NCBI GenBank assembly: GCA_030220185.1
Contig: JASPKZ010007250.1
Span: forward strand, 3,359,501 to 3,423,500
Source of the DNA: Diploptera punctata
Lineage: Eukaryota > Arthropoda > Insecta > Blattodea > Blaberidae
Reading direction: 5' to 3'
Length of the DNA stretch: 64,000 bases
Shown here: positions 4,042 through 58,937 of the stretch, in pieces
How the letters are laid out: the number at the start of each line of letters is the position of its first letter
How positions within the stretch are numbered: position 1 is the first letter of the stretch
Notes under the pieces: model-generated
Database searches by the model: none
What the model was told of the DNA's origin: nothing
The model's input: the letters and a program-made list of their open reading frames with translations, nothing else
Made by a program: the position numbers and the translations under genes

Positions 4042-4510
4042 AATAAATAATAGTTTTAAAAAACTAAAAGAACACGCTTTATTAGAAAACTAAAAAATGA
4101 AAAATAATTTTAATTTCCAATACGCTTGGGATAAAATAAAGTGGTCAACAAAAAAATCGTCTCCAACACATATAGAATAAAATTAGAGTTATCAACAAAA
4201 AGAAAATAATTTTACCATCAAAAGCGTGGGGTGCTCTATATCAATTAATATATTTGATAATAAACAGATATTGGTAAAAGTAAGCTCTCTAAGAAGAAAT
4301 TGTAAAAATCATAAAAATCACCCCACGCTTTTGATGGTAAAATTATTTTCTTTTTGTTGATAACTCTAATTTTATTCTATATGTGTTGGAGATGATTTTT
4401 TTGTTGACCACTTTATTTTATCCCAAGCGTATTGGAAATTAAAATTATTTTTCATTTTTTAGTTTTCTAATAAAGCGTGTTCTTTTAGTTTTTTAAAACT
4501 ATTATTTATT
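4042..4510. repeat. near-perfect 192-bp inverted repeat (palindrome)
   Basis: Arms 4042-4233 and 4319-4510 are both 192 bp and complementary at all but one position that I could find (G4159 against T4393). The spacer is 85 bp (4234-4318). The arms are AT-rich, without coding frames, and contain AAAGCGTG motifs. No terminal target duplication was recognised. It could be a foldback-type element or a template-switch hairpin. Confidence 0.93.
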
Positions 4511-4627
4511 TTTTATTTTTTAGTTTTAATATTTTACAGAATAAGATAAAAATGTAAATATCTTTAAATTCGATACTATTGTAGTATGAGCTAAAAGTAA
4601 TACTCTTCTATAAAAAAAAAACCTCCC

Positions 4628-4724
4628 AGCCGGATTTGAACCAGCGACGTATGGATTACTGAAATTATATACCACTAAGAGTTCACTGCTCTACCAACTG
4701 AGCTCTTACAACGATTGACTAAAA
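4628..4724 (-). other. tRNA-like sequence (SINE head or tRNA pseudogene)
   Basis: On the reverse strand GAGCTCAGTTGGTAGAGC forms a D arm and A box, and GCTGGTTCAAATCCGGC forms a T arm with B box. The acceptor strands do not pair and the anticodon region is too long. It is therefore not a functional tRNA. A T-run follows at the 3' side on this strand. Confidence 0.65.
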
Positions 4725-4760
4725 ACTCGACAAGTCCGCAACCTATTATACCAGTTTTCA

Positions 4761-5250
4761 TTTTTTTGATTTTCGGATGATTCTGGCCAGGATTTTGGAA
4801 ACAAAATATGAAATTATTGTATTGTCACGGGTCCTCTACACGTATACAAAGTTTCAAGTCGATCCAATGTTTCTAAGTGGGTGAAAATCGCGTTGAAAGA
4901 TTCCGTTACATTGATACAAAAACACTTTTTTTGATTTTCTGATGATTATGGCCAGGATTTTAGAAAATAAATATGAAATTATTGTATTGTCACGGGTCCT
5001 CTACAAGTATACAAAGTTTCAAGTCGATCCAATGTTTCTAAGTGGGTGAAAATCGCGTTGAAAGATTCCGTTACATTGATACAAAAACACTTTTTTTGAT
5101 TTTCTGATGATTATGGCCAGGATTTTAGAAAATAAATATGAAATTATTGTATTGTCACGGGTCCTCTACAAGTATACAAAATTTCAAGTCGATTCAATTA
5201 TTTTAAGTGGGTGAAAATCGCGTTGAAAGATTCCGTTACATAGATAGATA
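4761..5250. repeat. tandem repeat, three units of 165 bp
   Basis: Units start at 4761, 4926 and 5091, each opening with a T-run and GATTTTC, and running through GGCCAGGATTTT, TGTCACGGGTCCTCTACA and AAATCGCGTTGAAAGATTCC. Units 2 and 3 are nearly identical; unit 1 has more changes. The third ends in GATA repeats (5241-5256), then AGGTCAAGCTAATATAAAGC. It may be the expanded body of the tRNA-like element beside it. Confidence 0.88.
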
Positions 5251-5334
5251 GATACAGGTCAAGCTAATATAAAGCGTGTAAAAAAAGGTTAAACTAAAAA
5301 TATATAAAATTGTGATATTTCAAGTTATATGGAC

Positions 5335-8519: not shown

Positions 8520-8825
8520 GAAAAGTCTATTAAGTTCATGCGCAGAACAGCGGGTTACACCAGATGGGATCGGAAAAGGAACACCGATACCTTAAAAGAA
8601 TTGAAGACTACACCAATTTTGGAATATATTAAACAGTACCAACTAAATTGGAAACACCATCTTGAAAGAATGAGTTCAAATCGGATCCCCAAAGCTGTTT
8701 ATAATTATATACCAAGAGGACGAAGATCACTGGGCCGTCCTATGAAACGCTGGAGGGAAAATTTTCTATAGGATCGTAACAGGCCTTGGTCTAATACTTG
8801 GAAGGAAGAAGAAGAAGAAGAAGTC
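8520..8825 (+). mobile_element. LINE family D 3' fragment with GAA tail
   Basis: Frame 8538-8771 reads MRRTAGYTRWDRKRNTDTLK, then YQLNWKHHLERMSSNRIPKA and GRRSLGRPMKRWRENF, then a stop. The 3'UTR is short (GATCGTAACAGGCCTTGG), followed by (GAA)n at 8808-8823. It is the C-terminus of an RTE-like LINE. Near-identical segments occur at 32.8-33.1 kb (reverse) and 49.0-49.3 kb. Confidence 0.87.
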
Positions 8826-13239: not shown

Positions 13240-13481
13240 ATATTAGGAATGAGCTTACAAAATTCAGGTTACCAGACAGAATCAGAGAATAAAAACAAAA
13301 TTGGTTCGACCATATTTAAGAATGGACAAGAACGTATAACAAAACAATAATTATTCATATTTAAGCCAGAGGAGTATGGGTGAGTGGGACGGCCAAGAGC
13401 ATGATGGAGAGATCAGTTTTCTACATGAGACCCAGAACGAACCTTTTGAAGTTCAATCAGTAAAGATTATTATTATTATTC

Positions 13482-13543
<62 letters not shown>

Positions 13544-13555: not shown

Positions 13556-13912
13556 AACAGCAAAGACAAATAAGTATCTTTTGGCAACAGAAATGGATTT
13601 TATACGAAGGGCAGCAAGAATTTCAAGAAGAGAAAATAGTAGAAACTATTTTAGATTACATTAAAACTCAGCAATTAAGATGGTACGGACATATTCAGCG
13701 AATGGAAGAGGATCGGCTATACAAATGTGTTTTTAAATGGAGACCTGAGGGATGATGAGGGAGAGGAAGACCTAAAACCTCCTGGAGCCAGGGAATATAT
13801 TTATACATGAAGGAGAAACATCTACAACCAGGAGATTGGATGGACGAACAAAATTGGCTATTAGGAATCGGACGATGTCAAAGACATTAATCAACCGATG
13901 ATATATCTATCG

Positions 13913-16489: not shown

Positions 16490-16960
16490 ACTTCAAAACT
16501 ACTTTCAAGTCTCAACACGAAAAAAGCCAGAAGGAATATAATCAAGAGGACTAAATTATTAATATATAACACAATTGTGAAGAGTATTTTGTTATATGGT
16601 GCGAAAACATGGACGTTGAAGCAAAAACACAAAAATAAATTATTAGTCACATAGATGGACTTTTTAAAGAAAACCGGCAAGAATATCAAAATTAAACAAA
16701 ATGAAATGAAATACAGTAAGGGAAACTATGAATGTAGAAAAGGATATTATACAAGGGTTTGAAGAAATCCAACTAAGATTGTATGAGCATATAATGAGAA
16801 GGGACACAGAAACAAACAAATATTGTAATGGATACCTCCTGCAAAATGGAAACGTGGTAGACCAAATCAACGTGGATAAAGGGAATTTAAGATAACATGA
16901 AGAAGTAGATATGACAGAAACAGACACGCAAAACGGGGAAATGTGGAAGAAAAAAAATGT
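16490..16960 (+). mobile_element. LINE C-terminal fragment, decayed
   Basis: Translates in pieces as NTIVKSILLYGAKTWTLKQK and VEKDIIQGFEEIQLRLYEHI, then MRRDTETN. This is the usual order after the reverse-transcriptase palm in RTE-like LINEs. Several stops and shifts are present and the tail is unclear. Confidence 0.68.
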
Positions 16961-23795: not shown

Positions 23796-23957
23796 ACAAC
23801 GAAGGAATGGCGTCTGTATCCATATTGGGCGGCCACATCTTCGTCAAGTCAAGTCTTCAACGGTCAACAGGGCGACAAGGAATAGCACAGCTAAACTTGT
23901 AGGGCTTGAAGAGCGGAAGAAGCAGCCCTCTCTTGGGGGGTGGATACCCAGAGGAGC

Positions 23958-26870
23958 ATGTTTGGAGGCTCAGAGGAAGCAGCCCTTCCACCATCCTTGT
24001 CCTGCGAAGCGCTCGTAACGCTTCCAGGAGACATTTATCTTACTGAGAAGCTTCATGGAAATCAGCCGGATTGTCATAAAAGGAACCGACCCAAGCAAGA
24101 TAAAAGGATACGATTTGGAATAAAGGACATTTTGAAATTAGGAAATTGGAACGTAAGGGGAATAAATACAAAAGAAGAAGAATTAGAAAGAGAATTAAAG
24201 AAAAAAGAAATAAATATAGCAACAATAACAGAAACAAAAAAGAAACTAAAAGGAACAAAGGACTTACAACACTATACTATGTTGTATAGCGGAGTAGAAC
24301 AGACAACAAGAGCGCAGTGTGGAGTAGCAATTTTAATAGATGAAAAATGGAAGAACAAATTGAATAGCTATGAGTTTATAAATGAAAGAATCCTGATAGC
24401 CAGATTTAAAATTGAAAGAGGATATATGATGATAATTGCTGTGTATGCCCCAGAGGAAGGCAAGAAAGAAGAAACAAAAAAATTTTATAAAACATTACAA
24501 ACATTAGTTGATAAATATACAAAAGATCATCATTTAATAATAAGTGGAGACTTAAATGCCAGAGTAGGCAATGTCCCTATACCTAATGTAATAGGAAATA
24601 ATGGAGAAATAACAATAAATGATAATGGACAGGATTTGAGACAGTTTTCAGCCTATAATCAATTAAAAATAATGAATACCTATTTCCGAAAAAAGGACAT
24701 ACATAAATATACAAGAAGTGGATATAACTCAAGATCAATAATTGACTATTTAATCGTAAACAACAAGCTAGGAGCCTTGGTAAAAGATGTGAGAGTACAT
24801 AGAGGCAGCGATATATACTCTGATCACTATCTCGTGATAAGCAAAATAAACATAATAGCTAAATGGCGGAAAAATAACATAAAGAACAAAAGAAACCAAG
24901 AAGAAGTATATAAAATATATTTATTACAAGATCAAAGTATTAGACAACATTATGAAAGCAGAATGAATAAATATATATCAGAGATAGCGACGTCAGAAGA
25001 TATAAATATTGAATGGGAAAATATATCAAATGTAATACATAAAACAGCAAATGAGATATTAGGAAAGAAAAATAGAATAAGGAATAGGAAGGGCTTGAGA
25101 ACTTGGAATGCGAATATACAAAATGCAGTGAATGAAAAACAAAAAGCATATCATACATACTTACGACTGAAAACAGAAGAATCTTATGAAGAATATAAAA
25201 TGAAAAGGAGAATTGCTAAAAGCATTATAAGAAAATCCCATCAGGAGTCATGGGATAAATTTATAAGCTCAGTAGAACATGATATGTATGGAAGACAAGA
25301 AATAGGTTATAAATTAGTGAAACATCTAAATCAGACTGAGAAAGATTCTGCCAGATTGAATATAATCCCAGAACAAGAATGGATCCAGCATTATGAAAAA
25401 CTTTGGAAAAAGGAGGAAATTGAAGGAAAAGAGAACAATGAGGAAGAAATAAAAGTGGAAAATATTGATGTAATAGACATAAATGAATTAGAAATGGCTT
25501 TGAAAACCACTAAGAATAGGAAAGCAACAGGATTAGATAATATAAATATGGAATTAATCAAATATAGTGGAATATTGTGTAAACTACGAATACTTCATCT
25601 AATTAATATATGTTGGCAGACCTATGGGATTCCAACCACTTGGAAAACAGCAATTGTCAAGAATATATTCAAAAGAGGAGACCGGAGAAATTGCGAGAAT
25701 TACAGAGGGATTAGCTTAATGAATACTGGCTACAAAATATATACGAAAATAATAAATAATAGATTGAGAAACATAACAGAAGTAATAATAAGTGAAAATC
25801 AAAGTGGATTCAGAAAGGGAAGGTCATGTATAGACAATGTCTTTACACTGAAACAACTCATAGAAAAGAGAAGAGAACATAACTTAGAAACTCACATAGG
25901 ATTTATAGATTTGGATAAGGCCTTCGATCGAGTAAACAGACAAAAATTATGGGAAATATTACGAATGAAAGGATACCCGCTGTGCCTTGTTGAAACAATA
26001 AAGACATTATATGAAGACACAAATATAATTATAGATACCGGATTCAAAAGAACAGATGCAATCAAAACAAATACTGGATTACGACAAGGATGTAGTTTAT
26101 CACCCACTTTGTTTAATATATATATAGACGATATTTTTAATAAATGGAAAGTTTTAGTAAATCCAGGAATAAGAATGGATAATAAAATGTGCATAAATAA
26201 TCTTTTATTTGCTGACGATGTAATCATAATACAGAAAAATGAAGACGACTTACAGAAATCAATGCATGCATTAAATGAAATATGTAAATTATACGATCTA
26301 AAAATTTCTGTAAGGAAAACGAAGACCATGGCTTTTAGAGGAAGAGATCCAGTGAGAACCAAAATTATTTTAGAAAATCAAAGTATAGAACAGGTGTCTA
26401 GTTTCAAATATTTGGGCTGTGATGTTGGCTACAATGTGGAAAGAGATATTGACTCCAAAATAAATAAATTTCAGACGGTGTGTGGAACAATACAGAGAAC
26501 ATTCAAAAATAAAATTAGAAAAGAAACCAAGATAAAAATGTATAATGTTATGGCGGTTCCCACAATATTGTATGGATGTGAAACTTGGGCTCCAGTGAAA
26601 AGACAGAAGGATAGAATACAGACGGCAGAGATGCGGTTCCTAAGACAAGTAAAAGGATGTACAAGACTTGATAGAATAAGAAATGAGGATATAAGAGAAG
26701 AATTGAAAGTACAGCCTTTATTGGATAAAGTCACGAATTACAGACAGAAATGGATTGATCACATGGATGGAATGAGCAAGGAGAGATATCCATTGTTAGC
26801 CAGAAATTATCAAGCAAGAGGAAGGCGTGATGTTGGAAGACCTAGAAGACGTTGGGCTGATGCAATATGA
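23958..26870 (+). CDS. RTE-type endonuclease / reverse transcriptase polyprotein, intact
   Basis: A continuous frame of 970 codons from ATG 23958 to TGA 26868-26870. The frame is also open from a GTG at 23940, but ATG is the plausible eukaryotic start. The APE endonuclease spans about residues 58-292: NWN (N63), TITETKK (E92), SGDLNAR (D198), SDHYLV (D289, H290). The reverse transcriptase spans about 515-775: GFRKGRSCIDN, FIDLDKAFDRV (catalytic D651), LRQGCSLSPTLFN, LLFADDVIII (FADD 751-754). A thumb and linker follow (KYLGCDVGY, LYGCETWAP), then a C-terminus with GRRDVGRPRRRWADAI. All catalytic residues I looked for are present. The protein would nick target DNA and copy its own RNA there. 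There is no zinc knuckle. The copy may be active or very young. Confidence 0.93.
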   Translation: MFGGSEEAALPPSLSCEALVTLPGDIYLTEKLHGNQPDCHKRNRPKQDKRIRFGIKDILKLGNWNVRGINTKEEELERELKKKEINIATITETKKKLKGTKDLQHYTMLYSGVEQTTRAQCGVAILIDEKWKNKLNSYEFINERILIARFKIERGYMMIIAVYAPEEGKKEETKKFYKTLQTLVDKYTKDHHLIISGDLNARVGNVPIPNVIGNNGEITINDNGQDLRQFSAYNQLKIMNTYFRKKDIHKYTRSGYNSRSIIDYLIVNNKLGALVKDVRVHRGSDIYSDHYLVISKINIIAKWRKNNIKNKRNQEEVYKIYLLQDQSIRQHYESRMNKYISEIATSEDINIEWENISNVIHKTANEILGKKNRIRNRKGLRTWNANIQNAVNEKQKAYHTYLRLKTEESYEEYKMKRRIAKSIIRKSHQESWDKFISSVEHDMYGRQEIGYKLVKHLNQTEKDSARLNIIPEQEWIQHYEKLWKKEEIEGKENNEEEIKVENIDVIDINELEMALKTTKNRKATGLDNINMELIKYSGILCKLRILHLINICWQTYGIPTTWKTAIVKNIFKRGDRRNCENYRGISLMNTGYKIYTKIINNRLRNITEVIISENQSGFRKGRSCIDNVFTLKQLIEKRREHNLETHIGFIDLDKAFDRVNRQKLWEILRMKGYPLCLVETIKTLYEDTNIIIDTGFKRTDAIKTNTGLRQGCSLSPTLFNIYIDDIFNKWKVLVNPGIRMDNKMCINNLLFADDVIIIQKNEDDLQKSMHALNEICKLYDLKISVRKTKTMAFRGRDPVRTKIILENQSIEQVSSFKYLGCDVGYNVERDIDSKINKFQTVCGTIQRTFKNKIRKETKIKMYNVMAVPTILYGCETWAPVKRQKDRIQTAEMRFLRQVKGCTRLDRIRNEDIREELKVQPLLDKVTNYRQKWIDHMDGMSKERYPLLARNYQARGRRDVGRPRRRWADAI

Positions 26871-30185: not shown

Positions 30186-30472
30186 ATCCATCCATAGTAA
30201 TTCATGCTATGCTTTGCAGCTTTACTAGAAAATTATAGGTGTGATAGCTTAACGTTGCTTTCCACACCGGTGATGGATGATGATGATAAGGTTGATGATG
30301 ATGGCTGGATAATATTCGGGGACCACTGGTCTCTAAGCATCCTGAAATTTGTCTTACCGGTGAGGAAAAACCCCGAAAAAACCTCACTCAGAAGCCTGTT
30401 CCGACCGGGAATCGAACCCGGGCCCGCTGCTTGACAAGGCAGCACGCTACCTCGAGACCACAGCGGTGGAAA
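30186..30472 (-). mobile_element. SINE-1, type A
   Basis: Reverse strand: TCCACCGCTGTGGTCTCGAGG head with B box GGGTTCGATTCCC, body GAGGTTTTTTCGGGG and CACCGGTAAGACAAATTTC, then ATCATC repeats and the type A module to CCATCCATAG near 30186. Confidence 0.9.
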
Positions 30473-30838
30473 CCTCAAACATAGTTCTACATAATCTGTG
30501 TTTGGTATGTGTTTTTGCTTGATGAAAGTACGAGAAATACCAAAATAATTTTATGTGTAGATAGAAATAACTTAAAAGACGCGATATAACTTTACAGGAC
30601 GTGTAAAGATAGCTACGGATTACGCGTAAAGTAGGATTACAACTTAATTGGAATAGGCCTACGAGACAGTCATTGAATGTGGCTTTACCATGAAAATACT
30701 TTCCAAATTTGGGAAATTACTATAAAATGATTCAACTAATTGCCATTATAATAAGTTATGTGGCGACAAGTACCCAGTTTATTTAATTATTTATCAGTTC
30801 TGGTAAACTAGCTAATATTTGAAAATTAATAAACTCTC
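30473..30838. other. no gene recognised
   Basis: AT-rich flank of the minisatellite. Confidence 0.4.
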
Positions 30839-32606
30839 GTAAGCAAGCCAACAAGCTGTTAGCAGTAGTAAGCAAGCCAACAAGCTGTTAGCAGTAGTAA
30901 GCAAGCCAACAAGCTGTTAGCAGTAGTAAGCAAGCCAAAAAGCTGTTAGCAGTAGTAAGCAAGCCAACAAGCTGTTAGCAGTAGTAAGCAAGCCAACAAG
31001 CTGTTAGCAGTAGTAAGCAAGCCAACAAGCTGTTAGCAGTAGTAAGCAAGCCAACAAGCTGTTAGCAGTAGTAAGCAAGCCAACAAGCTGTTAGCAGTAG
31101 TAAGCAAGCCAACAAGCTGTTAGCAGTAGTAAGCAAGCCAACAAGCTGTTAGCAGTAGTAAGCAAGCCAACAAGCTGTTAGCAGTAGTAAGCAAGCCAAC
31201 AAGCTGTTAGCAGTAGTAAGCAAGCCAACAAGCTGTTAGCAGTAGTAAGCAAGCCAACAAGCTGTTAGCAGTAGTAAGCAAGCCAACAAGCTGTTAGCAG
31301 TAGTAAGCAAGCCAACAAGCTGTTGCAGTAGTAAGCAAGCCAACAAGCTGTTAGCAGTAGTAAGCAAGCCAACAAGCTGTTAGCAGTAGTAAGCAAGCCA
31401 ACAAGCTGTTAGCAGTAGTAAGCAAGCCAACAAGCTGTTAGCAGTAGTAAGCAAGCCAACAAGCTGTTAGCAGTAGTAAGCAAGCCAACAAGCTGTTAGC
31501 AGTAGTAAGCAAGCCAACAAGCTGTTAGCAGTAGTAAGCAAGCCAACAAGCTGTTAGCAGTAGTAAGCAAGCCAACAAGCTGTTAGCAGTAGTAAGCAAG
31601 CCAACAAGCTGTTAGCAGTAGTAAGCAAGCCAACAAGCTGTTAGCAGTAGTAAGCAAGCCAACAAGCTGTTAGCAGTAGTAAGCAAGCCAACAAGCTGTT
31701 AGCAGTAGTAAGCAAGCCAACAAGCTGTTAGCAGTAGTAAGCAAGCCAACAAGCTGTTAGCAGTAGTAAGCAAGCCAACAAGCTGTTAGCAGTAGTAAGC
31801 AAGCCAACAAGCTGTTAGCAGTAGTAAGCAAGCCAACAAGCTGTTAGCAGTAGTAAGCAAGCCAACAAGCTGTTAGCAGTAGTAAGCAAGCCAACAAGCT
31901 GTTAGCAGTAGTAAGCAAGCCAACAAGCTGTTAGCAGTAGTAAGCAAGCCAACAAGCTGTTAGCAGTAGTAAGCAAGCCAACAAGCTGTTAGCAGTAGTA
32001 AGCAAGCCAACAAGCTGTTAGCAGTAGTAAGCAAGCCAACAAGCTGTTAGCAGTAGTAAGCAAGCCAACAAGCTGTTAGCAGTAGTAAGCAAGCCAACAA
32101 GCTGTTAGCAGTAGTAAGCAAGCCAACAAGCTGTTAGCAGTAGTAAGCAAGCCAACAAGCTGTTAGCAGTAGTAAGCAAGCCAACAAGCTGTTAGCAGTA
32201 GTAAGCAAGCCAACAAGCTGTTAGCAGTAGTAAGCAAGCCAACAAGCTGTTAGCAGTAGTAAGCAAGCCAACAAGCTGTTAGCAGTAGTAAGCAAGCCAA
32301 CAAGCTGTTAGCAGTAGTAAGCAAGCCAACAAGCTGTTAGCAGTAGTAAGCAAGCCAACAAGCTGTTAGCAGTAGTAAGCAAGCCAACAAGCTGTTAGCA
32401 GTAGTAAGCAAGCCAACAAGCTGTTAGCAGTAGTAAGCAAGCCAACAAGCTGTTAGCAGTAGTAAGCAAGCCAACAAGCTGTTAGCAGTAGTAAGCAAGC
32501 CAACAAGCTGTTAGCAGTAGTAAGCAAGCCAACAAGCTGTTAGCAGTAGTAAGCAAGCCAACAAGCTGTTAGCAGTAGTAAGCAAGCCAACAAGCTGTTA
32601 GCAGTA
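30839..32606. repeat. 29-bp minisatellite, 61 tandem units
   Basis: The unit is GTAAGCAAGCCAACAAGCTG followed by TTAGCAGTA. The array is 1768 bp, i.e. 61 units with a single 1-base deletion. The only differences I found are C-to-A in unit 4 (near 30938) and the lost A in unit 17 (near 31324). There is no long ORF in any frame because 29 is not a multiple of three and stops recur. The last unit runs straight into LINE coding sequence. One unit reads KQANKLLAV in the frame of that LINE. Confidence 0.97.
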
Positions 32607-32725
32607 GAAATGCATTTTTGGAGACGATCGAAAAGAATTTCAAGAAGGGAAAAAGTCAGAAACAGCACAATAAGGGAATTCATGCAATTCAGAGGAATGT
32701 AGCATCGTTGGAGGGACTTGGTAAA
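32607..32725 (+). mobile_element. LINE coding fragment at the minisatellite edge
   Basis: In frame with the last minisatellite unit: EMHFWRRSKRISRREKVRNS then TIREFMQF. It is homologous to the segment at 13.56-13.65 kb (EMDFIRRAARISRREN). Only about 120 bp are recognisable. Confidence 0.75.
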
Positions 32726-32772
32726 TTTAATCTTTAGGTTTTTATACAACATTCGAGAAGACGGGAAACATT

Positions 32773-33160
32773 CTTCTTCTTCTTCTTCTTCCTTCCAAGT
32801 ATTAGGCCAAGGCCTGTTACGATCCTATAGAAAATTTTCCCTCCAGCGTTTCATAGGACGGCACAGTGATCTTCGTCATCTTGGTATATAATTATAAACA
32901 GCTTTGGGGATCCGATTTGAACTCATTCTTTCAAGATGGTGTTTCCAATTTAGTTGGTACTGTTTAATATATTCCAAAATTGGCGTAGTCTTCAATTCTT
33001 TTAAGATATCGGTGTTCCTTTTCCGATCCCATCTGGTGTAACCCGCTGTTCTGCGCATGAATCTCATTTCACAAGCCGTTATTCTGCTTTCATGTTGTTT
33101 TTTTAGTGTCCATGCTTCACTACCATAGGTCAACACTGGTCTAGCCAAAGTGTTTATATA
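32773..33160 (-). mobile_element. LINE family D 3' fragment with GAA tail
   Basis: TTC repeats (32773-32790) are the reverse of the GAA tail. Reverse frame 32876-33148: ARPVLTYGSEAWTLKKQHES, RITACEMRFMRRTAGYTRWD, RKRNTDILKEL and NWKHHLERMSSNRIPKAVYN. The stretch has no stop until the GRRS region, where a shift occurs near 32870. Confidence 0.88.
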
Positions 33161-33559
33161 AACGTAATCTGTGTGTTTTTGTACACCATTTAAACATTAA
33201 ACTTAACAATAATACAAATTTCCTGCTTCAACGCTTTCATACAGAAATGTGTAGGCTGTTTTATGCCACCGTTCCATCGTTCAGAGAACAAGTGACTACT
33301 AACGTTATGTTGGCCAATCTGATAAAATACGTTCCGGCTAAAGCGAATTGCCAACATGTTTATTCACATACAAGGGGTTTCTATCCCAAGAGTCCATCTA
33401 CATTGTAAGCAGGTTAGGGTGGGAAAATAGGCAAGTCAGCGTTAGATGGGCAAGTTAGAGTCAGAAAATGGACGAGTTAATACATCATAATATTAGTTTA
33501 ACGTTCAGTTGTTTGTTAGCGTTTTGTGATAAATTAGCTACACTATTTGAACAATGACT
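33161..33559. other. no gene recognised
   Basis: Unassigned. GGCAAGTCAGCGTTAGATGG and GGGCAAGTTAGAGTCAG near 33430-33475 form a short imperfect repeat. Confidence 0.4.
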
Positions 33560-48889: not shown

Positions 48890-49334
48890 TGATAAAAGTT
48901 TGGGAATTATTAATCAAGCTATGAAACCATTACTTGTACAAAAACGCCAGATTACGTTTATATAACCCTTTGGCTAGACCAGTGTTGACCTAAGGTAGTG
49001 AAGCATGGACACTAAAAAGACAACATGAAAGAAGAATAACGACTTGTGAAATGAGATTCATGAGCAGAACAGCGGGTTACACCAGATGGGATCGGAAAAG
49101 GAACACCGATATCTTAAAACAATTGAAGACTACGCCAATTTTGGAATATATTAAACAGTGCCAACTAAATTGGAAACACCATCAAGAAAGAATGAGTTCA
49201 AATCGGATCCCCAAAGCTGTTATAATTATATACCAAGAGGACGAAGATCACTGGGCCGTCCTATGATACGCTGGAGGGAAAATTTTCTATAGGATCGTAA
49301 CAGGCCTTGGCCTAATACTTGGAAGGAAGAAGAA
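48890..49334 (+). mobile_element. LINE family D 3' fragment
   Basis: LGIINQAMKPLLVQKR, RLYNPLARPVLT-GSEAWTLK, RITTCEMRFMSRTAGYTRWD, NWKHHQERMSSNRIPKAV, then a shift to GRRSLGRPMIRWRENFL and stop. The short 3'UTR GATCGTAACAGGCCTTGGCC ends in GAAGAAG. The stop in TYGSE and the later shift show decay. Confidence 0.87.
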
Positions 49335-49640
49335 GCTCTCATGTGTTCTTTTATACGAGAGATAAAAGGTCTACCTGTTTGTCCTATATAGTCATTATCA
49401 CATGTGCCACACTTCAATTTATATACACCTGATAATTTTTATTTTTTATTTTGGTTTTATTGTTTTTATTATATTATGTAAAGTTTTATTAGTTTTAAAT
49501 GCCACATTAATGTTCAACTTTTTTAAGTGTTTAGATATTTTATTGGAAAGTGGGCCTATGTATGACATTATGACATATTTCTTTATGTTCTCCTTGGGTA
49601 AAGGAAAAACTTTGTTAATTGCTTTTTTGTAATGAATTTT
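49335..49640 (-). mobile_element. Penelope-like element, linker and GIY-YIG start
   Basis: Reverse strand: INKVFPLPKENIKKYVIMSY, IGPLSNKISKHLKKLNINVA, FKTNKTLHNI, then YKLKCGTCDNDYIGQTGRPF, SRIKEHMRA. This is the junction of the reverse transcriptase C-terminus and the GIY-YIG nuclease in Penelope-like elements, including the CGTC zinc pair and YIG. It stops abruptly at the GAA tail of the LINE at 49334. Confidence 0.85.
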
Positions 49641-54580: not shown

Positions 54581-55424
54581 TCCTGGAACGGACACCTGGC
54601 CATTCCCCGAGAACGAGAAACGAATATCTTGAACTTATATATATACTCAACAAAGGTGTAAAAACCCGGTACCTGCGGATAAGATCAAGAAATTTGTTCT
54701 TGTTTTCGACTGAAATTAAACAAATCAGATATTATAACTAAACAGTCGTTTGCAAAAAATTATTGTGAATAAACTTATAGTACCCACTGTTGAAGAGCAT
54801 TGAGAATGAATTTTTAATAATAAAATAAATTGTGCAAGTTCCCGACATATTTATACAGGGAAAATTGCATTAACTTCACTAGTGTCATCTGTTTAAATAT
54901 TATACAACTAAACTGCTCATAGAAATATACAATGTTGTATCCATAGAAACTATTTTATTATAAAGAAAAATGTCTGAGTTTTGTAATTTTATGAAAATGC
55001 AATGATCCACGACTGTTTGTATTTTTATAACAGAATGATTTATCGTGAAAACATTTAACTTGCATTATAGGTGGGACACGTATTTGTTTACAATACAGTG
55101 ATTTATTAAGAAAATTATTTCTTCGTGTGTGAATTAAATTGTTCATTTTTTTAGTCGTTAGTGAGAAATGGTGTTTGCAGGAAATTTTAATTTAACTCAT
55201 TTTAAAATTAAACTCTATTTCATAAAACAGTATTTTTTTGTTTGGTGTAGAGGCAGTTTTTTTTTGTTCTCTAATAAATGTGAACAGGTAATGATACTGC
55301 TTTCTTGCATAGTTGCGTCCAGTTACTGCTTTCTTGTATTGCTGAAGTTATATTCATGTTATTAAACGTATGTATAACCTTTACTAATGTAATTTAATTG
55401 CAGTGAGAGGTGACAATAAACTAT
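54581..55424. other. no gene recognised
   Basis: AT-rich unassigned sequence; open frames short and without motifs. Confidence 0.4.
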
Positions 55425-57754: not shown

Positions 57755-58148
57755 TGGCATATTAAGAAAAATAAATGCCTTGCTGGAATTTGAACCCGGC
57801 CTCTGGATTGATATTCCGGTGCGCTACCAATTACGCAACCACGCAAATCTAGTAGAAACATTTGCTTATTTTTATCCCCCCTCTATTATTCCGAAAAGTA
57901 GCGGGAACTCTGTCTCCACTGCCATCTAGTAGCTCCTGTACAAAGTAAGCAAATTAAAGATAATATTTTTACATTATAGCAGTGACGCTTTTTCGATGTT
58001 ATAATTAAATTTTTGTTTGACATTGAGCAATGCAAGCTTAATATGACATAAGGAAAATAAATGCCTGGACGGGATTTGAACCCGGATCTGTGCATTGATA
58101 TTCCAGTGCGCTACCAATTACGCTACCTGGAAAATCAAGTACAAACAT

Positions 58149-58205
<57 letters not shown>

Positions 58206-58665
58206 TATTATTACAAGAAATAGCGGAAACTCGGTCTCCACTGCCATCTAGTAGCTCCTATACCAAGTAAGCAAATTAAAGGGAATAATTTTACTTTATA
58301 GCAGTGACGCTTTTTTGATGTTATAATTTTTTTCACATTGAGCAATGCAAGCTTAATATGACATGATAAGAAAAATAAATGCCTGGACGGGATTTGAACC
58401 CGGACCTCTGCATTGATATTCTATTGCGCTACCAATTACGCTCCCTGGAAAATCAAGTACAAACATTTATTTCATTAATATATATGTGTGTGTATTCTCT
58501 ATTACTACATTAAATAGCGGAAGCTCGGTCTCCACTGCCATCTATTAGCTCCTATATCAAGTAAGCAAATTAAAGAGAATATTTTTACTTTATAGCAGTG
58601 AAGCTTTTTTTGGATGTTATAATTTTTTTGACATTGAGCAACGCAAGCTTAATATGATATGATTG
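57755..58665. repeat. tRNA-like unit, three tandem copies of about 290-320 bp
   Basis: Units start near 57757, 58043 and 58358. Each has, on the reverse strand, a tRNA-like part (GGTAGCGTAATTGGTAGCGC A box, GGGTTCAAATCCCG B box), followed on the plus strand by AGCGG.AACTC.GTCTCCACTGCCATCTA and CATTGAGCAA.GCAAGCTTAAT. Units 2 and 3 also have TA or TG repeats (58155-58203; 58481-58495). The tRNA acceptor stem does not pair, so these are SINE-like or tRNA-pseudogene units. Confidence 0.85.
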
Positions 58666-58937
58666 GACCAATAGCAGAATATCAAAGAACAGACAAAAAC
58701 ATAGCACATAAATAAGACAACAACTAAAAGTAGATGACTTAAGCACAACAATAGTGAAATGCAGAACAAACTGGAAAGAACACTTGGCAAGGATGGCTGA
58801 GATTAGCATACAGCTATTCACCACGAGGAAGAAGTTTGAGAAGACCAAAGAAAAGATGGAAACAGCAGCAATTTGGAGCCGGAACAGGCTAGTAAATAAG
58901 CCTAAACCGTGAAGAAGAAGAAGAAGAAGAAGAAGAA
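58663..58937 (+). mobile_element. LINE family B 3' fragment
   Basis: GGACCAATAGCAGAATATCAAAG, then NWKEHLARM and PRGRSLRRPKKRWKQQQF-type translation, GGAGCCGGAACAGGCTAG and a GAA tail at 58915-58936. Two small deletions relative to the 27.3-kb copy. Confidence 0.87.

Follow-up and report, generated by a model that had tools for sequence, protein, structure and literature searches.

Minisatellites derived from transposable elements (TEs) are common in the human genome, where Ahmed and Liang (2012, PMC3389668) attributed 7,276 of 31,472 to such a source. According to the part of that survey cited here, only about 6% of the TE-derived cases have a beginning that two established models can explain. 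These models ask for flanking direct repeats of 5–10 bp or for an incomplete end unit, and 6,817 of the 7,276 repeats had neither (PMC3389668). In the sections that concern tandem repeats, one review states that satellites may arise from all parts of a TE, including its ORFs (PMC9659126), and another lists minisatellites from TEs together with the short-flanking-repeat model (PMC6947457). The C-terminal end of RTE elements has been tied to microsatellites in moths and butterflies, as described in the relevant part of PMC2887409.

Here we describe a long and nearly uniform minisatellite that lies against a LINE fragment in a stretch of 64,000 nucleotides from Diploptera punctata (contig JASPKZ010007250.1); the whole of this stretch is called the window, and all positions refer to it. 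Our literature search, which was not aimed at proving absence, returned no published account of this array.

Structure of the array

The array and its variants were placed as follows:

30839..32606, + strand: minisatellite, 61 units of 29 bp, GTAAGCAAGCCAACAAGCTGTTAGCAGTA, 59 of them identical (Tandem Repeats Finder and unit cutting)
30926..30954, + strand: unit 4, with a single C-to-A substitution (unit cutting)
31303..31330, + strand: unit 17, 28 bp long through a 1-bp deletion (unit cutting)
32580..32606, + strand: KQANKLLAV, nine codons of the final unit that share the frame of the LINE fragment (unit cutting and codon comparisons)

Tandem Repeats Finder reported positions 30839–32607, a period of 29, 61.0 copies and 99% matches. 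Cutting unit by unit at a recurring word gave 61 head-to-tail units of 29 bp, the last of which ended at 32606, versus 32607 in the program's output; base 32607 is a G, which is common to the start of the unit. The first and last units were perfect and complete, and over its 1,768 bp the array showed a single substitution and a single deletion. The first-pass annotation had reported two variants among 61 units, and unit cutting recovered both of them (units 4 and 17), either of which could be a sequencing error. With 29-bp units in 61 copies, the array falls within the size range of minisatellites as worded in the cited part of PMC3389668 (head-to-tail units of more than 10 and less than 100 bp).

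Stop codons were met in all six frames through the array, and a coding function was rejected on these grounds. The unit length of 29 is not a multiple of three, and the LINE frame therefore persists only across the junction of the last unit with the adjoining fragment. We infer that the array is non-coding and without function. Folding of two and four units as single-stranded DNA gave z values of −0.03 and 0.56 for the + strand and of −1.89 and −1.86 for the − strand. The latter are suggestive at most, and an unusual structure of the unit was not used as a cause of expansion.

Words of 11 to 14 bases from the unit were absent from the window outside the array, and in a blastn search of the same sequence 46 of 50 shuffled units matched as well as the real unit, which is as expected of a local event. 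Nor did we find in the window a LINE that carries just one unit, in the KQANKLLAVEM context. A 29-bp dimer at 55295–55350 resembled the unit on the opposite strand, to a degree equalled by 3 of 300 plain shuffles; it was dismissed as chance, since 186 of 2,000 period-keeping shuffles did as well. The exact 29-base unit had no match in bacterial and archaeal contigs, nor did a 25-base part of it in viral contigs; insect DNA is not expected in these collections, and both results carry little weight.

Other repeats were observed elsewhere in the window. The region 4042–5255 contains an inverted repeat with 205-bp arms (4042–4246 and 4306–4510, 97% complementary, 59 bp apart), followed by three tandem 165-bp copies at 4761–5255. 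A unit of about 290–320 bp is present at 57761–58673 in up to three tandem copies, and inside them an Rfam tRNA match was found on the minus strand (58061–58132, 31.6 bits). This may perhaps be a tandem tRNA-derived repeat; ARAGORN reported no tRNA across the window.

LINE sequence to the right of the array

Three stretches of LINE sequence are needed for the comparisons below:

32607..32702, + strand: LINE C-terminal fragment, EMHFWRRSKRISRREKVRNSTIREFMQFRGM followed by a stop (window matches; no Pfam match)
13562..13646, + strand: the closest LINE copy of the window, KTNKYLLATEMDF..., which served as a reference (window matches and alignment)
16550..16690, + strand: broken LINE copy, YGAKTWTLKQKHKNKLLVT*MDF..., used as a reference, with approximate limits (alignment)

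The last unit passes without interruption, and in the same frame, into the LINE C-terminal fragment; the translation runs KQANKLLAV-EMHFWRRSKRISRRE... up to a stop at 32700–32702. The junction had been read in the same way, as KQANKLLAV-EMHFWRRSKRISRREK, in the first-pass annotation, and its reading of the LINE copy at 13.56 kb, KTNKYLLATEMDFIRRAARISRREN, was also as described. The 3′ remainder of the interval then assigned to the array, which extended to 32725, is the LINE fragment.

The best relative of the fragment in the window was found at 13578–13646 (16 of 23 residues, E 8e-6). Weaker matches lay in other LINE copies, including an ORF of 986 residues at 23910–26870 (12 of 33 residues, E 7e-5), which is stop-free and carries RVT_1 (reverse transcriptase) and endonuclease domains. 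The fragment is thus homologous to the C-terminal region of ORFs that encode non-LTR reverse transcriptases. A Pfam search of the fragment itself gave no match, so its identity as LINE rests on the copies in the window. The 120 bp of the right flank were compared with the downstream parts of the copies at 13.56 and 16.6 kb, and in both cases outscored all of 500 shuffles. The LINEs of the window may belong to the RTE clade.

In a protein collection, the C-terminal region of the 986-residue ORF had eight relatives (E ≤ 1e-5, 51–58% identity) among 232 candidates. A 40-residue query made of the last unit and the fragment yielded no candidate, and neither did an 80-residue query from the 13.56 kb copy. 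In viral contigs, the latter query returned 14 pattern-matching stretches, none of which was confirmed, and the C-terminal part of the ORF at 23.9–26.9 kb returned one, also not confirmed. The array end with the fragment had no match among phage records. Downstream of the fragment we also observed a LINE piece on the − strand (32773–33185), 96% identical to 48935–49335 (404 bp) and 98% identical to 8535–8823 (289 bp); at such identities it is probably young.

Relation of the unit to LINE coding sequence

The unit was compared with 19 LINE sequences aligned at the EM site, namely 11 copies from the window and eight database relatives of the 986-residue ORF. The window references were picked by eye, with weaker matches such as those at 8.5 and 51.1 kb omitted, and among the 19 are several from more distant LINE families. 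Placed before EM, KQANKLLAV scored 143 against this set, and the runner-up among the 58 phases and strands of the unit scored 72. The same score was reached by 76 of 73,643 stop-free nonamers, taken in six frames from the rest of the window, and by 35 of 20,000 nucleotide shuffles of the 27 bases. With the 11 window copies or the eight database relatives as separate references, 84 and 98 of the 73,643 nonamers, respectively, scored as high. All these nonamer counts are conservative, because the background still contains LINE copies. The two nearest copies as references gave only 7 of 73,643 nonamers and 1 of 20,000 shuffles; these copies were selected for their likeness to the tail and the unit, so the figures for the 19 references are fairer. 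Against the 13.56 kb copy alone, 362 of 124,224 nonamers scored as high as KQANKLLAV.

The DNA of the unit was identical to the two nearest copies at 14 and 15 of 27 positions, and 1,844 and 362 of 200,000 shuffles, respectively, were as good. If a tandem repeat is called TE-derived when it resembles or overlaps a TE by at least one period, the present unit shows protein likeness and in-frame contact, with a DNA identity of only 14–15 of 27. On these comparisons, the derivation of the unit from LINE codons has support of moderate strength. The first-pass annotation had stated outright that the unit is LINE codons; the best of the 58 phases and strands does fall in the LINE frame, which bears this out to a moderate degree, whereas the low DNA identity counts against it.

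The left edge of the array

The left flank was examined over the following interval:

30719..30838, no strand assigned: left flank of the array, with no similarity to the sequence upstream in the two nearest LINE copies (shuffle test)

The copy at 16.6 kb, although broken, shows sequence upstream of the EM site. Against this upstream part, which is decayed, 424 of 500 shuffles of the 120-bp left flank were as good as the flank itself, and against that of the 13.56 kb copy, of which only 60 bp, mostly microsatellite, were usable, 209 of 500 were as good. Both reference copies are broken and the usable part of one is so short and repetitive that this test is of limited power. Reading the left flank in the frame of the first unit, we saw by eye nothing resembling YGAKTWTLKQ. 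LINE similarity was thus present to the right of the array and none was found to the left, and the array seems to stand at the upstream edge of the fragment. Within the limited power of the test, the array does not seem to have LINE sequence on both sides; it would instead abut or replace the upstream LINE part. The tests on the LINE-likeness of the unit and on the lack of LINE similarity on the left each lend support of moderate strength. In consequence of this position, the source of the unit was probably the outermost surviving piece of the fragment, a point that the first-pass annotation did not make. If the array had simply expanded inside a LINE, the end of the LINE at the start of the array would be left unexplained.

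We must also note two repeats in these surroundings. A 77-bp (ATT)n run (13466–13542) lies closely upstream of the 13.56 kb LINE copy and bears on the reading of the edge; two LINE fragments, each with a tandem repeat upstream, prove nothing. A dispersed repeat at 30201–30470 is located to the left of the array, with ten further blastn matches in the window (at least 66 bp, 74–88% identical).

Origin and expansion

We consider it probable that the edge codons of a truncated LINE fragment were duplicated and then recently expanded on the spot to 61 copies. A decayed LINE fragment would have been cut off upstream within its C-terminal region, and about nine of its outermost remaining codons (29 bp) would have been duplicated in tandem. 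Unequal exchange, gene conversion or replication slippage may then have expanded the duplication locally to 61 copies, so recently that no more than two variants appear. The near-identity of the units points to either recent expansion or continuing homogenisation, and the same two options, proposed before from the sequence alone, fit the 59 identical units of 61. We infer the order of events, truncation before expansion, as well as the local character and the recency of the expansion.

The start of the array does not fit the two published initiation models. In the model of Haber and Louis, as given in PMC3389668, slippage or unequal exchange takes place between flanking direct repeats of 5–10 bp; at an offset of 29 bp we found one common base on the right and none on the left. 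The other model calls for an incomplete end unit, and here both end units are complete.

The reading of the unit as LINE sequence has to be weighed against a minisatellite of other origin that abuts the LINE fragment, with the in-frame likeness due to chance. The comparison involves nine codons only, the DNA agrees at 14 and 15 of 27 positions, and the left flank lacks LINE sequence, all of which would suit such an origin. Nevertheless, among 58 phases and strands the LINE frame scores highest, and few nonamers (76 of 73,643) or shuffles (35 of 20,000) do as well against the 19 references, so that we regard a chance likeness as unlikely. An array made elsewhere, for example as a circle by rolling replication, and inserted with the LINE as its neighbour would agree with the sharp left boundary against non-LINE sequence and with the perfect edge units. 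It would, however, sit poorly with a window in which there is no second array or stray unit, and it seems extremely improbable. The copy number itself might be an artefact of assembly, with 61 reached either from a few true units by extension or from a longer array by collapse. Assembly of near-perfect arrays is difficult, and 59 of 61 units are identical here; yet both variants lie within a single regular array and the window sequence shows no sign of error, and we hold such an artefact to be very unlikely.

Another explanation places the first tandem copies at the insertion of the LINE, when target-primed reverse transcription, through template jumping or slippage at its end, would have left them at a truncated 5′ edge, to be expanded later. 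The array is indeed located where LINE similarity ends. Moreover, the cited part of the human survey reports 136 repeats in which a partial Alu lies beside one that is full or nearly so, and it indicates the 5′ end of elements as a site of duplication (PMC3389668). On the other hand, we recognised no target-site duplication. Between the final 40 bp of the left flank and 32608–32790, the longest common word was the 7-bp TGGTAAA, which we took as chance. The near-identity of the units also contrasts with the divergence of the fragment from its nearest copies. An origin at insertion is therefore quite unlikely in our estimate. It would be similarly doubtful to see in the array a class of minisatellites that start at truncated 5′ LINE edges, seeded by template jumping in target-primed reverse transcription and later expanded. 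If this were true, truncated LINE edges would be birthplaces of minisatellites, with no need for the flanking direct repeats of current models.

How minisatellites start is still an open question, for which the array offers a usable test case: it is long and nearly uniform, its probable source codons are still recognisable, and its place is the apparent edge of a LINE fragment. The starting state would become visible in individuals or related species that carry one or a few units. Should it be merely one more local expansion, the array is ordinary.

Comparison with known systems

TE-derived minisatellites are well documented, and the present array is probably a further case of that known phenomenon. 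As far as the cited part of the human survey goes (PMC3389668), its TE-derived minisatellites and our array are alike in being single-locus tandem repeats with units of 20–100 bp that involve a piece of a TE. The array resembles the 6,817 of 7,276 human cases in particular, as it has neither flanking direct repeats nor an incomplete end unit. The unexplained human cases in that part of the survey consist mostly of two units, in contrast to 61 nearly identical ones here, and the human elements are Alu, L1 and ERV, whereas ours is an insect-like LINE (PMC3389668).

Satellites from coding parts of non-LTR elements are also listed in the pertinent section of PMC9659126, for example from CR1 ORF II in chicken and LINE-1 ORF II in a hamster, and the array is similar to them in its probable source. 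Those ORF-derived satellites form families, while ours is one short array in one window. Lastly, the moth and butterfly RTE microsatellites, as presented in the relevant part of PMC2887409, share with our array the link between the C-terminal end of a non-LTR reverse transcriptase and tandem repeats in insects. They differ in that their short units lie in the 3′ UTR, downstream of the ORF, whereas the array described here seems to be built from a 29-bp coding unit at the upstream edge of the fragment.
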